Source: an uncultured Chloroflexota bacterium (GTDB lineage: Bacteria; Chloroflexota; Anaerolineae; Aggregatilineales; Phototrophicaceae). From it: 33,178 nt of DNA. The notes below the pieces were generated by a model that was not told the DNA's origin, did no database searches, and worked only from the letters and a program-made list of their open reading frames with translations. Location: the NCBI GenBank assembly GCA_903864435.1, contig CAIPFY010000080.1, positions 1 to 33,178 on the forward strand, written 5' to 3'. The translations under genes and the position numbers were made by a program. Positions 19,174 through 30,730 of this stretch are shown here, one piece after another (within the stretch, counting starts at the first letter, position 1; each line of letters begins with the position of its first letter).

Positions 19174-19383
19174 ATGAACCACCTTGAGAACTGGTCATTC
19201 TTTGGACTAACTACCGTATCTGCCATCGTCTGCCTGCTGTTTGCAGCAGGGATGGCGCAATCTGCTACGCCGGATACCGCAGTCTGGGAGCGCGAATCCG
19301 GCACATTGGCTCTCGTGGGGCTATACCTGCTCTTATTGGCGCTAGGTGAGCGTGTTAAGCACCTCCTCCGCAAGCCCGAATGA
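19174..19383 (+). CDS. Small two-helix membrane protein
   Basis: This is a 69-residue frame starting at ATG 19174 behind an AGAGGA site. Two hydrophobic stretches, 'FFGLTTVSAIVCLLFAAGMA' and 'TLALVGLYLLLLALG', are separated by a polar loop, and the tail is basic. I do not recognise the family. It overlaps the 3' end of the convergent FAD oxidoreductase gene by 42 bp. That is unusual but not impossible. The hydrophobic pattern and ribosome site argue for a real gene. Confidence 0.45.
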   Translation: MNHLENWSFFGLTTVSAIVCLLFAAGMAQSATPDTAVWERESGTLALVGLYLLLLALGERVKHLLRKPE

Positions 19384-20472
19384 GCGCGTCATCCCCGATC
19401 CGCCCAATCCATTCACAATCGTCACATTCGCTTCTGGTCGCAGAATCAGTTCACTCTTGTCTTTGAGCATCGGATAGATACCATGCCAGCGTTCCGCGAT
19501 TTCAAACGTGGGCGCTTGTGCAAACCCTTGTAGGTAGCTCATCATCGCCTGATTGATGTCCTCACGATCAAACGGATCAAACGTCTGACCGTATTCATGA
19601 TGATCGCCAATCGTAAGTTCACCCAGCGCAGTCTGGGACAACAACACATGAATATGATTTTGGCGGTGGAATGGCAGTTCTCGTTCTACCCGTTCTTTAT
19701 AGTCCGGGAACGAAGGACAGGCCGCGAAATAGGGATAATGCACCATCGTCAACCCGGAACACAGATTCGGCCCCAGCATCCATCCGTTAGGCTGCGGTTT
19801 CGTCCGCAACATTTGCAGTTTGCAGCGATAAATGCCGCTGCTGGCATATTCCTGCGGGTACAACGTTTCAAAGTCTGCGCCGCTGCATACAAAAACCTGA
19901 TCGGCCTGCCAATTGCCCGTTGTGGTTTCGATGCTCGGCAGCGAAATCCCCGTAACCAACGTGCCAAAGCGCAGTTCAACCCCGTACTCGCGCTGCAACC
20001 AGCCCGGTATGCCCCGAATGGCCTGCCGGGGGTCAATATTCACTTCGGTACGGCTCCACAACGCCCCTTTTAGCCCCTGTGCTTTGACCGCAGGACTCTT
20101 TTCGAGCGTCTGCTCTGGTGTCAAAATCTGGCAGTATTCATGTGCTTCCGGGTTCACGCGCAGAAATTCTTCAAAAAGATTCATTTCGTCGTCCGCATGA
20201 GCCACATGCAGCGATCCGCATTCGCGGCAAAACAGATCAGCGCCGCGTCCCGCTTCTAGCCAGATTTCGCGGCTACGCAGTGCCAGTTGCAACTCGTGCC
20301 CGCTTTTGCCAACAATCCACACCTGACCAAAATTGCGGATGGAAGCGCCTACTGCCGGATTCGTGCGCTCGAACAAAACCACTTTCAAGCCGCGCCGCGC
20401 TGCCGCCAACGCATGAGCCAACCCGACTATCCCCGCACCGACCACAGCCACATCCACTTTAGAGGAAGCCAT
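19342..20472 (-). CDS. Phosphonate-cluster FAD-dependent oxidoreductase (TIGR03364-like)
   Basis: This 376-residue flavoprotein of the DAAO/glycine-oxidase superfamily has the FAD-binding 'VAVVGAGIVGLAHALAAARR' at residues 8-27 and the closing 'NGLGGSGMTRSFGLAEEVL' motif near the C-terminus. The family recurs in phosphonate catabolism clusters. Members are thought to deaminate aminoethylphosphonate or its N-alkyl derivatives oxidatively to phosphonoacetaldehyde. Here it lies 14 bp after phnX, whose substrate is phosphonoacetaldehyde, and no phnW transaminase is present, which fits that role. The ATG at 20472 has an AAGGAA site. It is the last gene of the phosphonate operon. The substrate is inferred. 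Confidence 0.8.
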   Translation of the reverse strand: MASSKVDVAVVGAGIVGLAHALAAARRGLKVVLFERTNPAVGASIRNFGQVWIVGKSGHELQLALRSREIWLEAGRGADLFCRECGSLHVAHADDEMNLFEEFLRVNPEAHEYCQILTPEQTLEKSPAVKAQGLKGALWSRTEVNIDPRQAIRGIPGWLQREYGVELRFGTLVTGISLPSIETTTGNWQADQVFVCSGADFETLYPQEYASSGIYRCKLQMLRTKPQPNGWMLGPNLCSGLTMVHYPYFAACPSFPDYKERVERELPFHRQNHIHVLLSQTALGELTIGDHHEYGQTFDPFDREDINQAMMSYLQGFAQAPTFEIAERWHGIYPMLKDKSELILRPEANVTIVNGLGGSGMTRSFGLAEEVLNTLT

Positions 20473-20486
20473 TCATCCGTTCCTTG

Positions 20487-21311
20487 TTAGGGTTGTTCAC
20501 CAGACATCAAGCGAGTGTTGATTTCTGCCAATACCGGCGGCAAATCCGCAATGCTCCGAATGACATAGTGGGCACCCGCATTCAGCAAGCGTTCCTCAAT
20601 CAGACGCAGCCGCGCTTGTAAAACATCCCGGCTCAGGGCAGAAGCATCCGCCTCGCTCAAACCGAGTTCATTGCCTGATTGAGTCACCCCCACAGTCCAC
20701 GTTCCCGCATTCAATCCTTCTTCAATGTCCGGTACGGTATCGCCTATCTTGACGAAAGCGGCGAGTGGAAACACATCTAAATGGATGGCATTCTGGTAAA
20801 TCATCCACGGCGCGGGGCGGCCAGCCGGTACCACACTGGGACAAACCGCAGCATCCGGGATATAACCTTGTTGAGCAGCCACAGGCATCAAAGCGTTCAA
20901 AATGGACTGGCTGTAACCTGTAGTGGAGCCGATTTTCAGCCCCATCTCACGGCAACACTTGATCGCTTCGCACGCACCCGGTATCAAATTCGCGTACTGC
21001 AACACTGCGTGCGTCTGTACGGTGATGGATTGGCGATACATGATATTAATATCCGCCTCGCTGCAATCAGTCCCCTGAACGGTACGCCAATGCGCTGCGA
21101 CTTCTGGCATACGGGCGATTGCACGGATATGATCGCGCTTTTCCAACCCCATCGGGGCACGCGCCTGTGCGATGCTGATTTCAATCCCCCGCTGCCGAAA
21201 CACTTCGATGAACACCGCCACAGGCGCAAAACAACCGTAGTCAACCGTTGTGCCTGCCCAATCCAAAATGACGGCTTTGAGAGGTCCCGAATAGGTGGTG
21301 TGTGAGTTCAT
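20487..21311 (-). CDS. phnX: Phosphonoacetaldehyde hydrolase
   Basis: This 274-residue HAD-superfamily enzyme splits phosphonoacetaldehyde into acetaldehyde and phosphate. The nucleophile Asp17 is in [12 protein letters not shown]. The cap-domain motif [12 protein letters not shown] carries the Schiff-base Lys58, which separates true PhnX from phosphonatase-like hydrolases. '[13 protein letters not shown]' and '[16 protein letters not shown]' supply the phosphate- and magnesium-binding loops. The length matches the Bacillus enzyme. Its start overlaps the transferase stop by 4 bp, and the FAD oxidoreductase follows. It gives this operon a second, hydrolytic route to phosphate beside C-P lyase. 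Confidence 0.93.
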
Positions 21312-21970
21312 GAGCCATACTTTTCGATAAACTGTTCGACGTGATTCAGATCATCCAGACGTTCTTTCAGCGTTTCATGATTCCAATCCCACCACGCAAT
21401 CTCGAACAGTTTCTCGATAATACGATCGGAGAAACGTTTGCGAATGGGCTTTGCCGGCACACCGACTGCGATGGTGTAGGGAGCCACATCCTTTGTGACC
21501 ACAGCGCCAGAACCAACCACCGCACCAGTGCCAACCTTCACACCCGGCATCACAATGACATTGTGCCCTAACCACGTATCATGCCCGATTGCGCACTGGT
21601 GCGAGCGCCGCCAGTCGAAAAAGTCGGCATCGTCCTCACCAAAACCGTACAACTTGCGGCGATAGGTGATGTGATGCAGCGTCACCCGTTCCATCGGATG
21701 ATTGCCGGGATTAATCCGCACATGCGAAGCAATATTGCTGAACTTGCCAATTTGGGTGTAGATAATCTGGTTATCGCCGGCGGTGTAGCTGTAATCATCG
21801 AGCGTGGTTTCCACCAGCCAACTATTCGCTCCCACCTCTGTCCATTCACCAAAGTAGCAATCTTTAATCAGCACGCCTCTGTGAAAAACAGGCTTCTCAC
21901 CCAACGGCTGGGTAGCCAGCGTGGCGTTATGGTCGCCTTCGATATGCTGCGCGATATGTAACAGTGTCAT
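21308..21970 (-). CDS. Phosphonate-cluster hexapeptide-repeat transferase (TIGR03308-like)
   Basis: This 220-residue protein has a left-handed beta-helix built from hexapeptide repeats ('[19 protein letters not shown]', '[20 protein letters not shown]'), like xenobiotic and maltose acetyltransferases. A variant found in phn operons is named only as a phosphonate-metabolism transferase. The '[20 protein letters not shown]' segment is the acyl-acceptor region of the fold. It overlaps phnM and phnX by 4 bp each. It may acetylate aminoalkylphosphonates, as PhnO does with an unrelated fold, but this is unproven. Confidence 0.8.
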
Positions 21971-23160
21971 ACAGTCACCTGTTCCGCGAGTTGCGATAAC
22001 CGCGCCATGTGCGCGTCCCAGTAAATCGGATGTCCATCCCGCAGCACGGCACGAATACGGGGATGATCGGCAGATTCTTCAACCAGTACCAGATCAGCCT
22101 TCAAGCCGGTGGCGATTCGCCCACGATCATGCAACCCAACCGCATCCGCCGGATTTTGAGCGATCAATTTCACAGCTTCATGCAGCGGCAATACCCCATC
22201 TCTTGCCAGTTTGAATGCAACTTGTAGCATCGCAGCCGGGTAATAATCCGTCGCCAGAATATCCACCACTCCCGCATGGATAGCATCCATCGCGCTCAGA
22301 TTACCGGTGTTGGAAGCACCCCGATAGGCATTCGGCGCACCCATGATGATGTGCATTCCGTGTTCACGGGCAGCCTGAGCCGCTTCCAGAGTCACCGGAA
22401 ATTCGCTGATGGTCACACCTAACGCCTGCATCTGTTCAACCTTCGCCTGTTTGTCGTCATCATGCGAAGCAATCGGGATATGCGCAGCATTTGCCAAACG
22501 GCAGACTTCGGCGGCCACTTCCCAGTTTCGGGGTTCATCAGCCACTTCCTGCATCCGTTCCACCATCTTCTCTTTGACTTTGGCTTCTAGCACATCGCGG
22601 GGAATGCCCATCCATTTTTCCATGAAATCCACATAGCGTTCCAAATTGGAATACTGACCCTGCCCCGGCGTGTGATCCATCAGGGAAACCAGATCAATCA
22701 GATTCTCGTTGAGCAGTCCTTCCAAAATCGGCGCAGTCTCAGGATTAGTAATCTCAAAGCGAGCATGAACACGGAAATCCACCATGAGCTGATCGCGCTG
22801 CCGCCGGATCACCCGGATAATCTCGGTGGCCTTTTCTTGCGTTCGCAGATCGTTCTGATGCCATGCGAAACCCACTGCCGCAAATGAGGTGGTGATGCCT
22901 GTTCCTGCCAACCGCTTATCCAGTTCGTAAAGCGCCATGTCCACCGGAAAAAAAGCGTTGGGACGCGGCTCAATATCGCGTTCCAGCATGTCGCCGTGCA
23001 AATCAATCACGCCCGGAATGAGTGTCAATCCGGCGGCGCTCAAGCCCTGCCCGCTAAATCCCCCTTCGATGACCTCCGCAATGAGCGTCCCTTTGATGTT
23101 GATAGCTCCGCGATCAATCACACGGTCAGGCAGCACCAGTTTCAAATCAGTCAGCCACAT
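21967..23160 (-). CDS. phnM: Ribose 1-methylphosphonate 5-triphosphate diphosphatase
   Basis: This 397-residue amidohydrolase-fold enzyme removes pyrophosphate from the 5-triphosphate intermediate of C-P lyase in the cytoplasm. Metal motifs are DLHGDMLE (about residues 53-60), [13 protein letters not shown] and ATDYYP. All are in the expected order, and the length matches the E. coli enzyme. The start overlaps the end of phnL by 14 bp and the end overlaps the transferase by 4 bp, so it is translationally coupled. It belongs with the C-P lyase block. Confidence 0.93.
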
Positions 23161-23854
23161 ATCCCACTTCCTCTTGTGATGCCGTCAAACGAATTTCGGA
23201 GTCGATTAAATGCTGAATGTCTTCGGGATGATGAAAGACACCGATCATCGCTACGCCCTGCGCTTTTAATTCGGAAAGTCGGTTTTGCAGCGAGTTGCGC
23301 GTAGCTGCATCCAGAGAAGCGGTTGGTTCATCCAGCAGCAGCAGGCGGCGGGGGGCGATCAAAGCGCGGGACAGATTGACCTTTTGCTGTTCCCCCCCCG
23401 AAAAAGTGGTTGGATAGGCCGACCATAAGGCTTCTTTCAAGCCAAACGAGTACAGCATTTGCCGTGCCTGTTCCAGCGCCTGCTCCCAGGCCATACCGCC
23501 GTCCACCAGTGGTTCGGCCACCAGTTCCAACGCGCTCACACGCGGGCGGGGGCGCAAGAATTGGGTCACAAACCCCATTTCCTGACGGCGCAGCAGGGCA
23601 ATGTCCACATCTGCCGCATTCGCCAGATCAATCACGCCCAAAGCCGAGTTGAACAACGCTCGCCCGCTGGTTGGCACGTAGGTGCGGTATAAGCAGCGCA
23701 GCAGCGACGACTTACCAGCGCCGTTCGCCCCCCCAACCAGCACGAACTGCCCGCTTTCCAGCGAAAAAGATAGGTTGCTAAACACCTCGATCTCGCGCTG
23801 GAGATGGTCAATGTAAAAACGTTTCGTGAGCAGAGTGGCTTCGAGCAGTGGCAT
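23147..23854 (-). CDS. phnL: C-P lyase ATP-binding protein PhnL
   Basis: This 235-residue ABC-type ATPase is not part of a membrane transporter but joins the C-P lyase machinery. It has Walker A GGANGAGKSS (about residues 41-50), the signature FSGGEQQKVNLSRAL, Walker B LLLLDEPTASLD and an H-loop 'GVFHHPED' like the FHD of other PhnL proteins. The ATG at 23854 is chosen because it gives the family N-terminus and lies 13 bp after the phnK stop. Longer starts overlap phnK. PhnI-dependent chemistry in E. coli requires PhnG, H and L. Confidence 0.9.
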   Translation of the reverse strand: MPLLEATLLTKRFYIDHLQREIEVFSNLSFSLESGQFVLVGGANGAGKSSLLRCLYRTYVPTSGRALFNSALGVIDLANAADVDIALLRRQEMGFVTQFLRPRPRVSALELVAEPLVDGGMAWEQALEQARQMLYSFGLKEALWSAYPTTFSGGEQQKVNLSRALIAPRRLLLLDEPTASLDAATRNSLQNRLSELKAQGVAMIGVFHHPEDIQHLIDSEIRLTASQEEVGYVAD

Positions 23855-23867
23855 CCGGTTTACTTTC

Positions 23868-24692
23868 TCACAACTTGGCATGAACAAGCTGCTGGGTATA
23901 GGCATCCTGTGGGTCTTCAAGAATCTGATCGGTCAAACCCTGTTCCACCACACGACCATGGCGCATGACCATCACCCGATCAGCTAACGTGCGAATCACG
24001 CCTAGATCATGCGAAACGAGGATGATGGTCATGTGCCGTTCACGCTGTAAGCGTTTGAGCGTATCCAGCACCAACGCTTGCACAGACACATCTAACCCGG
24101 TCGTTGGCTCATCTAACAGCAGCAGCACCGGACGCAGCGCCAACGCCTTCGCCAGTTGGACGCGCTGCTGCATCCCCCCAGACAGCACACGCGGGGGGTC
24201 ATCCATCCGGTTTAGCGGGAACTCCGAAATGGACAGCGATTCGCGGGCGGCTTCGCGCAGGGTGGCAAAGGTGCGCTCACCGGTCAGCAACAGTCGTTCC
24301 GCAATATTGCCGCTGCTAGTGAAGCGCATCCGCAAACCGAGATGCGGATTCTGGTAAACCACACCAATGTTCATAATCTGCACTTCGCGGCGGCGAAACC
24401 GATCCAGTGCGAACAAATCCTGACCTTCCAGCACAGGTGTGTTTAACAAGTAAGTACCGCTGTCAGCTTGCTCCTCCAGATTGAGGAGCCGCAGCACGCT
24501 CGATTTGCCCGATCCAGACTCGCCCACAATCCCCAGCACTTCGCCGGGATAGGCTTCCACATCCACATCCGCCACCGCCTGCACCCGACCATAACGCTTG
24601 TGCAAACCGATGGCGCGGACAATGGGCGGGGATGTGACCAGTTGCGGTGGTTCAAATCGGGGGGATAACGGGCGGCTTGAGGTATCCAGCAT
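23868..24692 (-). CDS. phnK: C-P lyase ATP-binding protein PhnK
   Basis: This 274-residue ABC ATPase binds the PhnGHIJ core in E. coli. Walker A is GESGSGKSS, the signature LSGGMQQRVQLAKAL, Walker B LLLLDEPTTGLD and the H-loop VSHDLGV. A proline-rich leader of about 30 residues precedes the ATPase domain. ATG 24692 is used because upstream frames lie deep in phnJ. Even so it overlaps the phnJ 3' end by 41 bp, which is the extra C-terminal tail of that PhnJ. Confidence 0.9.
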   Translation of the reverse strand: MLDTSSRPLSPRFEPPQLVTSPPIVRAIGLHKRYGRVQAVADVDVEAYPGEVLGIVGESGSGKSSVLRLLNLEEQADSGTYLLNTPVLEGQDLFALDRFRRREVQIMNIGVVYQNPHLGLRMRFTSSGNIAERLLLTGERTFATLREAARESLSISEFPLNRMDDPPRVLSGGMQQRVQLAKALALRPVLLLLDEPTTGLDVSVQALVLDTLKRLQRERHMTIILVSHDLGVIRTLADRVMVMRHGRVVEQGLTDQILEDPQDAYTQQLVHAKL

Positions 24693-25590
24693 GATAGAAA
24701 TCCCCCTGATCGTCGTAGTAAGTTGCACCAGATTGCGCTGTGTCGGCCAATTTATTGGCGTAGCCGCTGTCTGAAAGCTCGTATTGCGAAGTACCATCTT
24801 CTTGCGGGAGTTCGTTCATAAACTTGTTTTGAACGCCGGTGGTTTTGCAAACCCACCCCTTTTGGTCTTCCACCTGAAATGGCACATCGTTGAATTCCAG
24901 CGGGTAGACATTAGTATAGGGAGGGACGGCGTAAAGGCGCTTCTCGCGCCCTGCCGAAAGTAACGTCAAGTGGGCGGCCTGATGCAGCTTAGGCGTATCC
25001 CAGCGCGGAATGGGGCTGGGGCTGATAATGTAGCGCCCATTCACCAGTGACGGATAGCTCGCGCCCTGTATGTACTGCCGGTAACGAACCAACTGTTCAT
25101 ACAGCAACAACCACATCTGCCCGTAATCGGCATCGGCGTGCAGTTGATGCGCTTTGGACATATCGGCAGTCACCCCGCGCAGAGGTTCCGGGTCAGGCAC
25201 TTGCAGCACCAGTGTTTGACCTTCCAGCATAATTTCTTCGGGGATGCGGTGGCGGCTTTGCAAAATGGTCGCCTGTAGCGTGTCAATCGTAGTCTTAGCG
25301 CCACTCATCGTAGTAATGAACCGGCGCAAGTTAGCCGCATTCACCGAGTCATCCGCGCCCTGATCGATCACCTTCACCACGCTTTCCGGCCCCACCAGAC
25401 TCAGCGTCACCTGCAACCCGCCCGTCCCCCAACCGCGTGCAATCGGCAGTTCGCGGCTGGCATATGGCACTTGATAACCGGGAATCGCAATCGCTTTCAG
25501 AATGCGGCGGCGCAATTCGCGCTTGGCATGGGCATCCAAGAACGCATAGCTGTAGTCCTGCCGCTGCTGTGCCAGATCAGCGAGTTTCAT
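24652..25590 (-). CDS. phnJ: C-P lyase subunit PhnJ, lacking most Fe-S cysteines
   Basis: This 312-residue protein aligns with PhnJ, the radical SAM enzyme that breaks the C-P bond, through the usual conserved blocks 'IPGYQVPYASRELPIARGWG', 'VIDQGADDSVNAANLR' and 'GREKRLYAVPPYTNV'. In E. coli the cluster and thiyl residues form a C-x2-C-x21-C-x5-C motif (Cys241, 244, 266, 272). Here the matching positions read Cys248, Thr251, Leu272 and Ala278, and the flanking residues still align in frame ('TGVQNKFMNEL', 'ELSDSGYANKL'). No frameshift or alternative cysteine codons explain this. A tail of about 35 residues, ending in a Pro-rich stretch, overlaps phnK. The protein may be inactive as a lyase, use other chemistry or form a scaffold. 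Confidence 0.9.
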   Translation of the reverse strand: MKLADLAQQRQDYSYAFLDAHAKRELRRRILKAIAIPGYQVPYASRELPIARGWGTGGLQVTLSLVGPESVVKVIDQGADDSVNAANLRRFITTMSGAKTTIDTLQATILQSRHRIPEEIMLEGQTLVLQVPDPEPLRGVTADMSKAHQLHADADYGQMWLLLYEQLVRYRQYIQGASYPSLVNGRYIISPSPIPRWDTPKLHQAAHLTLLSAGREKRLYAVPPYTNVYPLEFNDVPFQVEDQKGWVCKTTGVQNKFMNELPQEDGTSQYELSDSGYANKLADTAQSGATYYDDQGDFYHAGYLKPPVIPPI

Positions 25591-26693
25591 GGTTGCACCT
25601 GCTGCATGTTTTCATGGTTAGACTGCGGCGGCGGCGTGTCGTTGGTATAGAAGGTTGAAATCACCTTGCGCACCGAGTCCATACTGCTGGCAAAAGTTAC
25701 ATAGTGCGGCAGTTTGAAATGGATGCAGAAGCCGGATGACTCCACCGGTTCGGTGTGATACATCACGAATTCTTCCTCATGCGCCGGATGCGGCTCACGG
25801 TTGTTCATCTCCATATCCAGCGTGGAGGCCGCGATCAGCTTCACTTCATTCCAGCCCAGTGTGGCGGCAAAACCCAGTTGAAAACTGCTTTTGCCATCAT
25901 CACCACCGCTGGAAATGACTTCTGCTTGGCTGACGCGCACCCGCCCCGCGCTGAACACCTCACCTGTCACCGGATGCCGCAGCCCCACTTCGGCATAACC
26001 CAAACGAAGCTCATTGACGGTAGGGTGGATCAGGCCGTAACCGCGCATGCTGGCATACCCCAACGCCAGCACGCCGCCCGTATCGGCACGCGCTAATGCC
26101 TGTAAGCGGTGGGCGCGGGGTGCAGGGAACAGCACCACGTCCGTTGTCACATCAGGCACTGCCGCTGGTTCTGTCTGGTCAGCATCCAGCGCCGGCAGCA
26201 ACCCCTGCGAACGCTGCCAATCGGCAACTACCGGATACGTGGGAGGTGCGGGATTTTCGGCCTGCGGCGCGGGCGGCGCGTCATCTTCGCGGATTCCATC
26301 CAGCACATCCAACCGCAGCAAACGATGGCTGTAATCCAACGTTGGGCCAAGCACCTGCCCACCGGGAATATCCTTAAAGGCAGCCGAAATGCGCCGCACC
26401 GTCAAGACTTCGCCTGCGGTGACTGGTTCGGCATAGGCGAGGCGCGGTTGCGTGGAACGATAAGCACGCAGCAGCAAGACCGCCTCGTATACATCACCAC
26501 CGGTCTGCGCCAATGCCAGCGCCGCCAACTCTGGCGAATATAATGATCCTTCACCAATGACCTTATCCAGCAAAAAAGGAAGCTGTTTCTGGATCAGTTG
26601 AATCGCTTCCGGGGTCAACTTGCCGAGCATAGCTTGATAGAACTGCTCAGCATGTTGTATGGCATCTTCGCCACCGCGTGCTGCTACATACAT
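25587..26693 (-). CDS. phnI: C-P lyase subunit PhnI
   Basis: This 368-residue PhnI is the nucleosidase-like subunit that, with PhnG, H and L, swaps adenine of ATP for the phosphonate. Typical stretches are 'MYVAARGGEDAIQHAEQFY' at the N-terminus, 'RGYGLIHPTVNELRLGYAEV' in the middle and 'HYVTFASSMDSVRKV' near the end. The length is close to that of the E. coli protein (about 354). A Pro/Ala-rich insert lies near residues 140-160. It overlaps phnJ by 4 bp and follows phnH by 14 bp, consistent with stoichiometric synthesis of the core complex. Confidence 0.93.
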   Translation of the reverse strand: MYVAARGGEDAIQHAEQFYQAMLGKLTPEAIQLIQKQLPFLLDKVIGEGSLYSPELAALALAQTGGDVYEAVLLLRAYRSTQPRLAYAEPVTAGEVLTVRRISAAFKDIPGGQVLGPTLDYSHRLLRLDVLDGIREDDAPPAPQAENPAPPTYPVVADWQRSQGLLPALDADQTEPAAVPDVTTDVVLFPAPRAHRLQALARADTGGVLALGYASMRGYGLIHPTVNELRLGYAEVGLRHPVTGEVFSAGRVRVSQAEVISSGGDDGKSSFQLGFAATLGWNEVKLIAASTLDMEMNNREPHPAHEEEFVMYHTEPVESSGFCIHFKLPHYVTFASSMDSVRKVISTFYTNDTPPPQSNHENMQQVQP

Positions 26694-26707: not shown

Positions 26708-27259
26708 CTAAGTGCTGCTTCGTTCCACTTGCACACTGCGCGGCAGTCCCACAATGCGCTGTTCATCCACGAAATACACATCCCAACCCAGCGGGTAGCG
26801 GCAAACTGCGCTCCGTAACAACCAGAAATCAGCCGGTATGCCATCCAGTTGTATTGTCTGCTGCCCCAAAATGCCGGGGCCATGCAGGATGTACCCTGCC
26901 CCGATCCCGATCTGGCAGCCAATCACCAGCGTAGATGCTGCATCCGGGTACAGCAGCGTGCCGGTGCTGCACTGATGAAGCCCATCGAGATTTGCCGCGT
27001 CCAGCACTGGATAGAAATGATAGGCCGCTTTCGCTGCCGGCTGCGCTCTGGCACCGGTCTGTGCAAGGTTTTCCGCGATGACCGCATCGGGTGTGAAATA
27101 GCTGGTTTCCAGATCAAGCAAAGTCACGCCAATCAGCGACAGCGCATGACCATCTGCTGGCAGCGTATAAACACGCCCCGGATAGCTCAAAGCCCACATC
27201 AGCGCCAAAAAGGTATCACGCGCCTGTGCTTCCGATGGGGTATAAGCCGGTACAGCCAT
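26708..27259 (-). CDS. phnH: C-P lyase subunit PhnH
   Basis: This 183-residue core subunit of the C-P lyase complex carries the usual 'ARDTFLALMWALSYPGRVYT' start, a central 'LLDLETSYFTPD' strand and 'LHGPGILGQQTIQLDGIP' before the C-terminus. The length is near the family norm (about 194). It shares one base with the phnG stop (TGATG), so it is coupled to it. No catalytic site is known in PhnH; it is structural in the PhnGHIJ core. Confidence 0.9.
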   Translation of the reverse strand: MAVPAYTPSEAQARDTFLALMWALSYPGRVYTLPADGHALSLIGVTLLDLETSYFTPDAVIAENLAQTGARAQPAAKAAYHFYPVLDAANLDGLHQCSTGTLLYPDAASTLVIGCQIGIGAGYILHGPGILGQQTIQLDGIPADFWLLRSAVCRYPLGWDVYFVDEQRIVGLPRSVQVERSST

Positions 27260-27681
27260 CAGAATGTCTCCATTTCGATGCGGGTCGCTTCCACCTGCCG
27301 CAGAAGTTCGTCATCGGTTTGCTGCTGTTCGGTTTGTTGGGTGTGAATAAACTCCTGAATACGCTCAGTTGCAATATCTGCACGCAGCGCCGCATCCAGC
27401 AAAGCAATCGCTACTGCCTGTAGCAAATCTCGGCCCACAACCGCCGCATAGCCTTCGACACCGTTCTCCAGTCGCACCCATGCTTCTGCCACCAACACCT
27501 CGCCCAGATGAAACCGTGTTCCCTGCGCACTATCGGTATAGGGGAGCATAACCAACCCCGTCCGGTTTTCCAGTACAGAAACACTGCCCAGTGCAGGGAT
27601 TACGTCATCAGCCAGTTCTTTCACCCTGCCGGATGGAGCATGAGTCAAAGTGGACAAATCGTGAAAATGAACCGCATTCAT
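27259..27681 (-). CDS. phnG: C-P lyase subunit PhnG
   Basis: This is a 140-residue PhnG, recognised by 'RFHLGEVLVAEAWVRLENG', 'VVGRDLLQAVAIALLDAALR' and the 'VEATRIEMETF' C-terminus. The start at 27681 has an AAAGGA site 9 bases upstream and clears the stem-loop at 27718-27744. The open frame continues to 27750 but would translate that hairpin. The N-terminal 25 residues are diverged from typical PhnG. It opens the gene block for the C-P lyase core, downstream of the transporter genes. Confidence 0.85.
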   Translation of the reverse strand: MNAVHFHDLSTLTHAPSGRVKELADDVIPALGSVSVLENRTGLVMLPYTDSAQGTRFHLGEVLVAEAWVRLENGVEGYAAVVGRDLLQAVAIALLDAALRADIATERIQEFIHTQQTEQQQTDDELLRQVEATRIEMETF

Positions 27682-27717
27682 CAAACGAAATCCTTTAGAA
27701 GCATAATTGAGCATGAA

Positions 27718-27744
27718 GGGGGAGTGTTGCAATAACACCCCCCC
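27718..27744 (-). promoter_or_regulatory. Stem-loop between phnD and phnG
   Basis: GGGGG-A-GTGTT pairs with AACAC-C-CCCCC around a 5-base loop (one mismatch). It lies 32 bp past the phnD stop and before phnG. As in the two other operons, it has no T-run and sits directly downstream of the binding-protein gene, so it may stabilise the phnCED message or reduce read-through into phnG. Confidence 0.65.
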
Positions 27745-27775
27745 TCCCATTTCATTAGTCGCTAACGAAGAGTAT

Positions 27776-28819
27776 TTAGCGTTTGGTCAGATCCAAATCC
27801 AGCTTTTCAGCGATGACGCGCAGGGGGTTGTACAGCGCATCAATGTTGGGCAGGCTGCTGTCAATAAGGGTCGGATCCATGTAGAAGCGGGTGATGGCAT
27901 CCACATTGGCCTGATCGTTGGCGATATTCAGCAGGGCGGCCTTCACCGCGTCCTTGAAGGTCTGGGGCAGGCTTGTGCTGACCGCGAACGGGGTCTGGGG
28001 GATCAACGGCGACTGATGGAAGACGGCGATGTCGCCTTCGGGGCATTCATCGTAAATCTTCATGATCTGTTCTTCGGTCATGACCGAGTGGAACGGATTC
28101 TGCGACTTATCTTCGCTGGTGATACCGCAAATCTTCAGACCGGCTTCCTTCACCTGATCCACGAGGTTGTCATCGAAGGTCGCGCCGGCAACGGTTGTGC
28201 CATTGGCAACCGCCAACACAGCCGACGGGTGGTTGCCGGCGAAAGTCGCGGTGAAGAACGTGTCCAGCTGATCCTTCGAGTCGAAGGTCATCGCGTTCAT
28301 GATATCGGTCGCCGGAACCAGATAGCCGCTGGTTGAAGCGGGATCGGTAAACGCGAAGGTCTGGCCCTGAAGATCGGCAATACTCTTGATACCCGAACCC
28401 TTCTTGGTGAACATCAGGCTGTAGTAGCCGGGGATGACACCCAGATTCACGGTCGTGCTGTAGTTGCCAACGGCAATCGCTTCAGCATTGGCGATCTGCG
28501 CGGCCAGTGTGTACGAGAACGGGCCGACTTCAAACGCATCGGCACGACCGGCACGCATGGCTTCGACTACAGCGTTGTAGCTGGTGCCGGTGATGATGAC
28601 CGTGCGCACGCCGAGGGTGGTTTCCAGATACGAACGCAGGGGTTCAGCCGCTGCAATAGCCTTCTCCACATTGTCGCCCGGATACACACCGATGATAAAG
28701 GTCTCCGGCCAACCGGTACGATCCACAGGTTCCGGTGTGGCTTCCTGCGCCGCCACCAGACCCACACTCAACAAAGTCACAACCAACAACGCCAGCAAAA
28801 CCAAGCTCAACTTCTTCAT
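27776..28819 (-). CDS. phnD: Phosphonate-binding protein PhnD
   Basis: This is a 347-residue secreted phosphonate binder. Residues 1-24 form a Sec signal peptide (MKKL, hydrophobic core, then VAAQ) without a lipobox cysteine. The mature part has the PhnD hallmarks 'GTSYNAVVEAMRAGRADAFE', 'GPFSYTLA' and 'TFAFTDPASTSGYLVPA', which form the phosphonate pocket. ATG 28819 has a GGAG site 7 bases upstream. It is the third gene of the operon, after phnC and phnE, and is followed by a stem-loop. Confidence 0.92.
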   Translation of the reverse strand: MKKLSLVLLALLVVTLLSVGLVAAQEATPEPVDRTGWPETFIIGVYPGDNVEKAIAAAEPLRSYLETTLGVRTVIITGTSYNAVVEAMRAGRADAFEVGPFSYTLAAQIANAEAIAVGNYSTTVNLGVIPGYYSLMFTKKGSGIKSIADLQGQTFAFTDPASTSGYLVPATDIMNAMTFDSKDQLDTFFTATFAGNHPSAVLAVANGTTVAGATFDDNLVDQVKEAGLKICGITSEDKSQNPFHSVMTEEQIMKIYDECPEGDIAVFHQSPLIPQTPFAVSTSLPQTFKDAVKAALLNIANDQANVDAITRFYMDPTLIDSSLPNIDALYNPLRVIAEKLDLDLTKR

Positions 28820-28871: not shown

Positions 28872-29774
28872 CTAAATAAATCGCTGGCGTAGATAGCTGC
28901 TGAAACGATCAATGATGGTGACAGCGATCACCAGCACAAGAGCTGTCCCCATCAACTTCTGATAGGCGCTGGTTCCCATATACTCGAACAACTTGTACCC
29001 CACGCCCCCCGCCCCGACATAACCGAGGATGGTGGCGCTGCGCACGTTATGCTCGAAATACACAATTGAGTACGAAATAAGCAGCGGGAGCGCCTGCGGA
29101 ATCACACCGTAGATGAACACTTGAATGCCCCCGGAACCGGTGGCACGAACAGCCAGTACCTGCTGCGGATCAATCTGCTCGATAGCTTCCGCATACAAGC
29201 GGGACAGCGACCCAATCGTGCTGAACACCAATGCGAGTACACCCGTGAATGGGCCAAGCCCTACAGCAGCGACAAACAATAGGGCATAGACCAATTCAGG
29301 AATGGAACGTAGGAAATTGAGAACAAAGCGAACGGATTGGTAGATCACTGGATGCGGGGACACGTTGCGTGCAGCCAGCAAGCTGATGGGCATGGCGACC
29401 AGCACCGCGCCAACTGTGCCAATCACCGCCATTTGCACCGTTTCAATCACGCTGGATACCACCACCGGCCAACCCAGCTCCATCTCAGTGCCCAAAATGT
29501 TGTAAGTCACTTTGGTTCCGCGCATCAGTTCAAATTCAGGCGGGAACATGCGTGAAACCAGATCGCCCATCGCGCCAAGTGCGTCGAACACACCGCGAAC
29601 GCGGTTAATTTCGCTTGGGCGAGATGCGTTCCAACTCCACGCCAAAATACCCATCAGAATTACGATCAGCAACAATCCACGTAGCGTGATCGAGGGAAAT
29701 GGACGAAGCAGTTTCTCACGAATTACTTCCGGGTTTACAGGAGCAGAGGGTAACAGGTGTCCGGGAGTGGTCAT
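28872..29774 (-). CDS. phnE: Phosphonate ABC permease PhnE
   Basis: This is a 300-residue membrane protein. A long polar N-terminus (to about residue 28) leads into 'LRGLLLIVILMGILAWSW', and about five more hydrophobic segments follow. The EAA-like loop around 'AVRATGSGGIQVFIYGVIPQ' matches phosphonate permeases. There is only one PhnE, so it should form a homodimer. It starts 2 bp after the phnC stop. The phosphonate family is clear; the range of phosphonates carried is not. Confidence 0.9.
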   Translation of the reverse strand: MTTPGHLLPSAPVNPEVIREKLLRPFPSITLRGLLLIVILMGILAWSWNASRPSEINRVRGVFDALGAMGDLVSRMFPPEFELMRGTKVTYNILGTEMELGWPVVVSSVIETVQMAVIGTVGAVLVAMPISLLAARNVSPHPVIYQSVRFVLNFLRSIPELVYALLFVAAVGLGPFTGVLALVFSTIGSLSRLYAEAIEQIDPQQVLAVRATGSGGIQVFIYGVIPQALPLLISYSIVYFEHNVRSATILGYVGAGGVGYKLFEYMGTSAYQKLMGTALVLVIAVTIIDRFSSYLRQRFI

Positions 29775-29776
29775 CG

Positions 29777-30598
29777 TTAAATGCCCCCTACAGCCTGATT
29801 AGAAACAACCCCTTGCCAACCCATGTTCTGAGCCGGAGTCTCGACTAAGGGATGCGTATGCTTATCAAAGCGATAGATGCGATCCAGTATCGCAGAGGTC
29901 AAGCCATCTGGTGCGCCATCATAAACCACTACGCCCTGCGCGATGCCGATAATCCGGTCACAGTATTCTTTGGCAAGTTCGACATGATGAATGTTAATCA
30001 GCGTGAGTACGCCAACTTCGCGGGCAACCCGCGCTAAATCGGCCATCACCTGCTGCGAGAGTTCAGGGTCAAGGCTGGCAACGGGTTCATCCGCCAGCAG
30101 AATTTTAGGTTCCTGCGCGATGGCCCGTGCAATCGAAACACGTTGTTTCTCGCCACCCGACAAGCGATCAGCGCGGAAAGTGGCGCGATGTAGCATATTC
30201 ACACGTTCAAGGCTCTTGAGCGCAAGCTCACGATGCTCGCGGCTAAAATAGCCCACGAAACTACCAATGCCTGTGTTATAGCCTAACCGCCCGGTCAACA
30301 CATTGGTAATCACCGGCAGCCGTTCAACAAGGTTGTATTCTTGCCAGATGAAACCGATGTAGCGACGCGCCTTGCGAAGTTGGCCGCCACCCATCGCCGT
30401 AATGTTTTCACCATCCAACAACACCTGTCCGCTGGATGCAGGCTGAAGCCCGTTAATGCAGCGCAGTAGAGTGGATTTGCCCGCACCGGAACGACCAATA
30501 ATCGCCACAATTTCTCCGGCGGAAGCCTGCAAAGAAATGGACTTCAGAGCTTCGTTCCCATTCGGATATATAACTTGCAAATCTTTGACTTCGAGCAT
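29777..30598 (-). CDS. phnC: Phosphonate ABC ATPase PhnC
   Basis: This 273-residue ATPase has Walker A GRSGAGKST (about residues 37-45), the signature LSGGEKQRVSIARAI, Walker B ILLADEPVASLD and an H-loop region 'INIHHVELAKEYCDRIIG', all typical of PhnC. ATG 30598 gives the family N-terminus (MLEVKDLQVIYPNG). The open frame reaches 30676 but that part is upstream leader. It is the first gene of the 13-gene phosphonate operon, with about 130 bp of control region behind it. Confidence 0.9.
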   Translation of the reverse strand: MLEVKDLQVIYPNGNEALKSISLQASAGEIVAIIGRSGAGKSTLLRCINGLQPASSGQVLLDGENITAMGGGQLRKARRYIGFIWQEYNLVERLPVITNVLTGRLGYNTGIGSFVGYFSREHRELALKSLERVNMLHRATFRADRLSGGEKQRVSIARAIAQEPKILLADEPVASLDPELSQQVMADLARVAREVGVLTLINIHHVELAKEYCDRIIGIAQGVVVYDGAPDGLTSAILDRIYRFDKHTHPLVETPAQNMGWQGVVSNQAVGGI

Positions 30599-30730
30599 TG
30601 GATAAACCCCATACTTTCGGCGAAGGTCATCGCCTACCAGCGGGACGATGAAGCCACTGTAACAGGGGTATATCAAGTGAAAGTGAAATGTTATTTAAGA
30701 ATGTAGACTTAAACACAAGACAAAACTTAA
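30599..30730 (-). promoter_or_regulatory. Control region of the phosphonate operon
   Basis: This 132-bp gap precedes phnC and is AT-rich. On the minus strand it contains the tandem TTTCACTTTCACTT followed by GATATA about 75 bases before the phnC start, a possible promoter with a repeated control element. No phnF-type regulator gene is adjacent. The exact hexamers cannot be fixed by eye. Confidence 0.35.

Follow-up and report, generated by a model that had tools for sequence, protein, structure and literature searches.

Genes and features of the window

The window, that is, the whole stretch of 33,178 nucleotides that was analysed, carries the genes phnC-E-D-G-H-I-J-K-L-M and, after them, genes for a hexapeptide transferase, PhnX and an HpnW-type oxidoreductase. 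Neighbouring genes overlap or lie no more than 52 bases apart (Table 1). The phnGHIJKLM set of a C-P lyase system is present, PhnK and PhnL being best matches below the NCBIfam cut-offs. Profile matches and gene spacing agree with the earlier note, which had described the rest of the C-P lyase operon as intact and tightly packed. For phnP and phnN only weak matches were obtained in the window genome (32 and 40 bits, with cut-offs of 272 and 156). Among 45 genomes searched, PhnP exceeded its cut-off in none and PhnN in three, and no sampled Chloroflexota genome passed, canonical ones included; full-length PhnP-like matches of 77-120 bits were present in several. The arrangement of the hexapeptide transferase, PhnX and HpnW-type genes downstream of phnM (19342-21970) suggests a combined route that would also take aminoethylphosphonates. 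Counting the window, phnX was found near 6 and HpnW near 4 of the 88 variant loci described below.

Table 1. Positions of the phn genes and of selected PhnI and PhnJ residues in the window
Feature	Position	Strand	Basis
HpnW-type FAD oxidoreductase	19342..20472	-	TIGR03364 446 bits, above cut-off
phnX, phosphonoacetaldehyde hydrolase	20487..21311	-	TIGR01422 340.5 bits, above cut-off
phn-associated hexapeptide transferase	21308..21970	-	TIGR03308 278 bits, above cut-off
phnM, ribosyl phosphonate triphosphate diphosphatase	21967..23160	-	TIGR02318 419 bits, above cut-off
phnL, likely start Met 23854	23147..23854	-	best NCBIfam match TIGR02324 229 bits, below cut-off of 256.3
phnK, likely start Met 24692 within phnJ 3' end	23868..24692	-	best NCBIfam match TIGR02323 217 bits, below cut-off of 302.85
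phnJ variant, 312 aa, one Cys (C248)	24652..25590	-	PF06007 399 bits and Cys count
PhnJ variant-specific C-terminal tail	24652..24744	-	tail motif in 84/88 variants vs 0/61 four-Cys
PhnJ region of former cluster ligands C248, T251, L272, A278	24755..24849	-	alignment columns, codon coordinates
PhnJ Q130 = E. coli Gln124	25201..25203	-	88/88 and 61/61
PhnJ R113-H114 = E. coli Arg107-His108 (bound ribose cyclic phosphate contacts)	25249..25254	-	88/88 and 61/61
PhnJ G38 = E. coli Gly32 (proposed glycyl radical)	25477..25479	-	88/88 and 61/61
phnI	25587..26693	-	PF05861 381.5 bits
PhnI C323-x-H325-x4-H330, zinc-ligand His (E. coli His328, His333) and extra Cys (E. coli Val326)	25704..25727	-	
phnH	26708..27259	-	PF05845 106.7 bits; TIGR03292 above cut-off
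phnG	27259..27750	-	PF06754 84.2 bits; TIGR03293 above cut-off
phnD, phosphonate-binding protein	27776..28819	-	PF12974 169 bits
phnE permease	28872..29774	-	PF00528 69.9 bits and operon position
phnC ABC ATPase	29777..30676	-	PF00005 117 bits and operon position

Cysteine columns of the window PhnJ

The Pfam profile PF06007 matches the window PhnJ over residues 12-281 (E 8.7e-120, cut-off 25 bits, profile positions 2-272 of 275), and E. coli PhnJ (4xb6/7z15) was alignable to residues 12-282 with HMMER, so that the proposed identity and the in-frame alignment hold. The columns of E. coli Cys241, Cys244, Cys266 and Cys272 correspond to C248 (codon at 24847-24849), T251 (24838-24840), L272 (24775-24777) and A278 (24757-24759). 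The protein has thus lost the proposed thiyl residue and two of its three cluster ligands, as had been read from the sequence at the outset, and in place of the CX2CX21CX5C set of the canonical radical-SAM C-P lyase the window PhnJ has C/T/L/A. Since these ligands and the thiyl residue are missing, the published radical SAM/Cys272 chemistry, as described, is beyond this protein. Cluster ligands at other PhnJ positions were considered and rejected, because C248 is the only cysteine of the whole protein and there are therefore no alternative cysteine ligands in it. A search of the window genome (5.39 Mb in 464 contigs, 94.5% complete and 4.9% contaminated) found no other PhnJ, canonical or variant, and a search of viral contigs found no relatives of the window PhnJ.

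In a broad alignment of 121 distinct full-length PhnJ rows, from which one partial PhnJ (L025) was left out, the cysteine-poor pattern was found in 93 rows, and sequencing error was therefore rejected as its cause. The cysteine loss in the window gene is real, but it is the state of a widespread clade and not the oddity of one gene.

Residues lost and kept in the cysteine-poor clade

The cysteine-poor PhnJs, called variants here, form one clade, represented by 88 distinct loci whose records are titled Chloroflexota, Deinococcota and Proteobacteria. Locus comparisons were based on loci of at least 9 kb with a distinct phnJ start (88 variant and 45 canonical), to which named plasmid loci (7 and then 8 more) were added. 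At most the first ligand is retained in 87 of the 88 members and two of the four cysteines in one. At E. coli position 241 the variants have C (84) or D (4), at position 244 S (49) or T (39), at position 266 L, V, I or A throughout, and at position 272 G (44), A (26), one of V/M/L/I/W/Q (17) or, in a single Bradyrhizobium row (L130), Cys. All four cysteines are present in each of the 61 PhnJs outside the clade, and no PhnJ with three of the four was seen among the 88 variants and 61 four-Cys proteins. Three variants (L072, L083 and L086), each the sole PhnJ of its genome, have no cysteine at all.

The columns of the loss are under constraint, being S/T in 88/88 and L/V/I/A in 88/88 variants. 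A tail motif, G-x-[TM]-[YWF]-[YF], was found in 84 of the 88 variants and in none of the 61 others, in line with the suggestion that the extra C-terminal tail is part of the change. Gly32, Gly47, Gly49, Arg107, His108, Gln124 and Asp229 (E. coli numbers) are invariant in 88/88 variants and 61/61 four-Cys PhnJs. The clade therefore keeps the Gly32 of the canonical radical-SAM C-P lyase in every member, as well as the PhnJ ligand-contact R/H/Q (88/88) and the PhnI zinc histidines (144/144) of a C-P lyase system. In the E. coli complex, Arg107, Gln124 and His108 are described as touching the bound ribose cyclic phosphate, Asp229 as one of the PhnK contacts and loop 37-49 as lining the pocket (PMC9947105). 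At the start of this pocket loop Tyr replaces Phe37 in 86/88 variants and 5/61 four-Cys PhnJs, and D235, G266, S273 and D274 are kept in 88/88 variants and in 57 to 61 of the 61 others.

The 12 closest pairs gave dN/dS values of 0.010-0.084; for 634 pairs with dS of 0.1-1.0 the median was 0.22 (C-terminal part 0.30, highest 1.49), values that saturation may blur. An AlphaFold2 model of PhnJ from 39 rows was weak (mean pLDDT 56.7, with residue blocks 241-300 at 72-83), and in a Foldseek search with it the top hit was E. coli PhnJ (query TM 0.58, rmsd 8.0), which confirms the family only. Because this model and that of PhnI are weak, residues are not placeable from them.

Distribution and origin

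PhnJ was present in 37 of 400 genomes drawn evenly from the phylum of the window, the window genome counted. The sequences at all PhnJ sites were read, and 12 of these 37 genomes have the cysteine-poor form, the rest being four-Cys; the window genome itself aside, the cysteine-poor proteins are about 68-74% identical to the window PhnJ. Among 289 genomes drawn from the class of Rhizobium tropici, PhnJ was found in 48 and a second copy scoring variant-like in 2 of these, one of which is the centre of the draw, picked for having the variant; the variant form is therefore a minority in that class. A GTDB genome scan with a variant-specific query gave 187 relatives, of which the best 80 were taken, a selection that is no measure of how common variant PhnJ is. 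Record titles among these best 80 include Anaerolineae, Oscillochloris, Deinococcales, Rhizobium tropici, Celeribacter and Salipiger. Members on plasmid records were found in Mesorhizobium AR07, Sinorhizobium B11, Rhizobium 11515TR, Microvirga VF16, Nitratireductor OM-1, Haematobacter massiliensis OT1 and Thermus thermophilus HB8 and SNM1-1. Two contigs filed as Bacteroidetes and Pleurocapsa MAGs (L067, L068) have Chloroflexota rows as their nearest PhnJs and are probably misbinned.

In a PhnJ tree from the columns ahead of the C-terminal domain, a single branch (SH-aLRT 96) separates the 88 variants from the other PhnJs, and the four-Cys proteins of Methylibium, Thiothrix and Marinobacter adjoin them (support 86). 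PhnI and PhnK trees, with a smaller canonical sample, gave the same split. Within the variants Thermus branches first. With E. coli taken as the root, which is assumed, the cysteine loss would be derived and a single event; lying on one branch, it therefore offers no independent replication.

E. coli PhnJ (PDB 4xb6, 7z15-7z19) and the variant belong to the same family, with about 45% identity, and have in common the pocket residues, Gly32, the PhnK-contact Asp229 and the partner subunits. Unlike E. coli PhnJ, the variant retains just one of the four cluster/radical cysteines (none of them in four members and two in one), has a longer tail with its own motif and mostly carries Tyr for Phe37. 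The plasmid four-Cys PhnJs of Thiothrix, Methylibium and Marinobacter, which form the sister group, have Tyr at Phe37 in 4/4 loci and the PhnI cysteine described below in 2/4; unlike the variant, they possess all four cysteines and lack the tail motif. Canonical PhnJ has been likened through CX2CX21CX5C to radical SAM enzymes with unusual C-terminal cluster motifs, such as ThiC (PMC7916636), whereas the variant, without this motif, is not placeable among them.

A cysteine at the PhnI metal site

A PhnI sequence could be obtained for 85 of the 88 variants. H325 and H330 are present in all of the 144 PhnI sequences, and C323, two residues ahead of the first zinc-ligand histidine, in 83/85 variants and in 2/59 PhnI of four-Cys systems, namely those of Thiothrix and Methylibium. 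In the window PhnI it is the only cysteine; both Thermus proteins have Ala at this position. A first comparison had given C323 in 98% of 85 variant and 0% of 45 canonical PhnI, an exclusivity that was lost in the wider sample. Relocation of a cysteine into PhnI was accordingly demoted as an explanation, since the residue occurs in two four-Cys systems and is Ala in Thermus; the relocated cysteine is not proved, and C323 as a replacement thiol for Cys272 is only suggestive. It may have predated the PhnJ loss and made that loss tolerable, being neither needed nor enough to explain it. The Tyr at Phe37 of the PhnJ pocket loop is spread over the two classes in a similar way and is open to the same objection. 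In the AlphaFold model of PhnI the span of C323 (residues 303-336) has pLDDT below 50. A new cluster in another subunit was rejected as well: with columns counted at 40% Cys or more in either class, no variant subunit has three or more Cys columns.

Gene neighbourhood and copy number

The complete phnGHIJKLM set in one orientation was found in 74 of the 78 variant loci with enough flank. Beyond the phn core, transporter, regulator and transferase, no dedicated accessory gene recurs widely near variant loci (at most 14/88 or 16/88), where neighbour ORFs were called greedily in GC-rich DNA and antisense shadow ORFs were also listed. In 14/88 variant and 0/45 canonical loci a gene for a PfkB-family kinase is found no more than 9 kb from phnJ (e.g. 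L055:17556-18350; L059, L109, L115 and L118 are among the others), and perhaps this kinase acts on a ribose product. A gene for a xylose-isomerase-like TIM barrel (PF01261; e.g. L053:18598-19362) is near 16/88 variant loci and 1/45 canonical loci. PhnN is encoded near only 6/88 variant loci; in three Haematobacter genomes with the variant as sole PhnJ, a phnN over the cut-off lies about 3.1 kb from it.

Of the genomes of the best 80 among the 187 relatives, 39 have, as assembled, no PhnJ besides the variant (18/50 and 21/30), 39 have a second full-length PhnJ of canonical score (31/50 and 8/30), and in two more (G420, G748) only fragments stand beside the variant. Second copies were called canonical by score (at least 467 bits), and 20 that were fetched read as four-Cys. 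Judged by record title, the sole-copy genomes among these 80 comprise three Haematobacter and the genomes from outside the Proteobacteria; since many are MAGs whose completeness is not stated, the absence of a second copy may in some cases be false. In these 39 genomes and the window genome no canonical PhnJ was therefore found that could act in trans, and in the 39 genomes of the best 80 with a second, canonical-scoring copy the variant could have a different job. Haematobacter massiliensis OT1, unlike the sole-copy strain, carries both PhnJ kinds on one plasmid, the four-Cys copy included. In a Marivita MAG (G420, the genome of L104) two fragments of a broken PhnJ (C11:89814-90197) are found some 12 kb away from the intact variant gene.

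Proposed mechanism and alternative explanations

The reading that we favour is a complete C-P lyase whose PhnJ has neither an iron-sulphur cluster of its own nor Cys272 and which would cleave at the conserved PhnI/PhnJ metal site; on the sequence comparisons above, its chance of being right is put at about even. Phosphonate would be imported by PhnCDE and coupled to ribose triphosphate by PhnGHI with PhnL, PhnM would trim the coupled product to the 5-phosphate, and the C-P bond would be cut at the metal site of PhnI H325/H330 and PhnJ R113/H114/Q130, opened by the PhnK/PhnL ATPases. The PhnJ C-terminal domain would serve as a metal-less scaffold, with its ligands replaced by Ser/Thr, aliphatic residues and mostly Gly/Ala and with a new tail, and the extra PhnI cysteine, seen in all variants examined except the two Thermus, would be the best candidate for the thiol of E. 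coli Cys272. What the comparisons show directly is the anatomy of the sequences, their conservation, the set of genes and the phylogeny; the persistence of C-P cleavage, the metal site as its place and any role of the PhnI cysteine are all points that we infer. Making the PhnJ substrate is the known use of PhnM. The C-P lyase pathway is reviewed in PMC10574752. More tentatively, and with slightly less than an even chance, this would be a second, Fe-S-free C-P lyase in at least three phyla, cutting at the PhnI/PhnJ metal site, with the cysteine of the PhnI C-x-H-x4-H motif replacing Cys272 in most members. Formation of the normal product is supported by the nearness of phnN to the variant (about 3.1 kb) in the three Haematobacter genomes that have no other PhnJ, and countered by the rarity of phnN and by the lack of a clear phnN or phnP in the window genome.

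The cluster-free lyase is ranked as the most likely explanation, followed by a structural role of the cysteines, a complex without lyase activity and activation in trans. The structural explanation, which is considered unlikely, holds that the four canonical cysteines are mainly a metal knuckle, that both forms share chemistry at the His/Zn site and that the published roles of the cluster and of Cys272 are wrong or not general. Metal-less copies of a structural site are known from the C+/C- pairs of zinc-ribbon ribosomal proteins. The PhnJ substitutions resemble packing in place of metal, with S/T, aliphatic residues and mostly G/A at the former ligands and with D235, G266, S273 and D274 kept, and the C-terminal blocks 241-300 have pLDDT values of 72-83 in the weak variant model. 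However, reconstituted E. coli PhnJ reportedly forms methane in a SAM-dependent manner that requires the cysteines, and the presence of all four in 61/61 PhnJs outside the clade, with no three-Cys form, is stricter than a structural knuckle needs. On the structural side stand also the distance of about 30 Å between the cluster site and Gly32 in E. coli structures (PMC9947105, PMC7916636) and the mention of a zinc atom tied to the four cysteines (PMC11978286). Loss of the cleavage step, with a complex that binds phosphonates, phosphite or phosphate esters or couples them to ribose, is judged rather improbable. The parts that are missing are exactly those needed by the published cleavage chemistry, a canonical-scoring full-length copy accompanies the variant in 31/50 and 8/30 of the best 80 genomes, the PfkB-type kinase is confined to variant loci in the comparison above (14/88 vs 0/45), and C-P cleavage in the window could fall to PhnX. 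Yet the pocket residues, Gly32 and PhnM are retained, the variant is the sole PhnJ as assembled in 39 of the 80 genomes, and phnX is near only six variant loci, the window's included. The earlier note had left open a variant lyase or a non-lyase complex. Of these two, the variant lyase is favoured by the unvarying metal-site residues and Gly32, by the retention of PhnM and by a phnN close by in three sole-PhnJ genomes.

It is also conceivable, though very improbable, that a separate activase or Fe-S protein, with its gene at another place in the genome, makes the Gly32 glycyl radical and that a PhnJ cluster is unneeded, much as pyruvate formate-lyase activase generates a glycyl radical on its partner enzyme. 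An invariant Gly32 in a PhnJ without the means to ligate a cluster would fit this. Against it, no true-strand gene family beyond the phn core, transporter, regulator and transferase occurs in more than 14/88 or 16/88 variant loci, and conservation of Gly32 may serve the fold alone. A degenerating pseudogene or a sequencing error would account for the missing ligands of the known cofactor, but both are refuted by 93 distinct cysteine-poor PhnJ rows, full operons in 74/78 loci, constrained columns and low dN/dS in the closest pairs.

Relation to the literature

C-P lyase is thought to need four cluster-holding cysteines, yet the window genome and many others carry the full machine without the cluster site; the accepted mechanism is therefore either incomplete or not the only one. 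Breakage of the C-P bond has long been a puzzle, as the cluster site and the radical glycine are about 30 Å apart in E. coli structures, a problem laid out in PMC7916636. A natural family with the substrate site but without the cluster site separates the two, and its members include Thermus thermophilus HB8, Rhizobium tropici and Oscillochloris. If the more tentative reading of a second, Fe-S-free C-P lyase is true, such an enzyme would be less dependent on a supply of iron and on protection from oxygen than the accepted one.

No description of a PhnJ without the four cysteines was found in the open-access literature (most subscription papers lie outside this scope). The four cysteines of PhnJ are checked for, and two major clades are spoken of, in PMC11978286. 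The finding is relevant to surveys of phosphonate use and aerobic methane. In one survey, sequences were verified or removed by conserved residues (PMC9381506), in one paper PCR primers are placed over the four-Cys region of PhnJ (PMC12413358) and in another C-P lyase is linked to iron (PMC6852614); a cysteine-poor family may therefore be missed or misjudged.

Additional observations at related loci

Canonical Chloroflexota PhnK (L192, L195, L047 and L048) has an extra N-terminal four-cysteine insert (CxxC...CxxC), which may bind metal; Cys occupies its four columns in 47-51% of 45 canonical PhnK and in 0/77 variant PhnK. Loss of a PhnK cysteine (0/77 variant vs 44/45 canonical) was dropped as a marker of the variant because E. 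coli PhnK has Phe at that position. The genome of Microvirga sp. VF16 (G442; L057 and L133) gave ten PhnJ matches, which by score seem to include both kinds; plasmid pMVF16-1 carries nine of the ten. On a plasmid of Nostoc ATCC 53789 (L217), a gene annotated as a phosphonate-degradation HD-domain oxygenase (1148-1708) stands immediately before phnJ, in the usual place of phnI.
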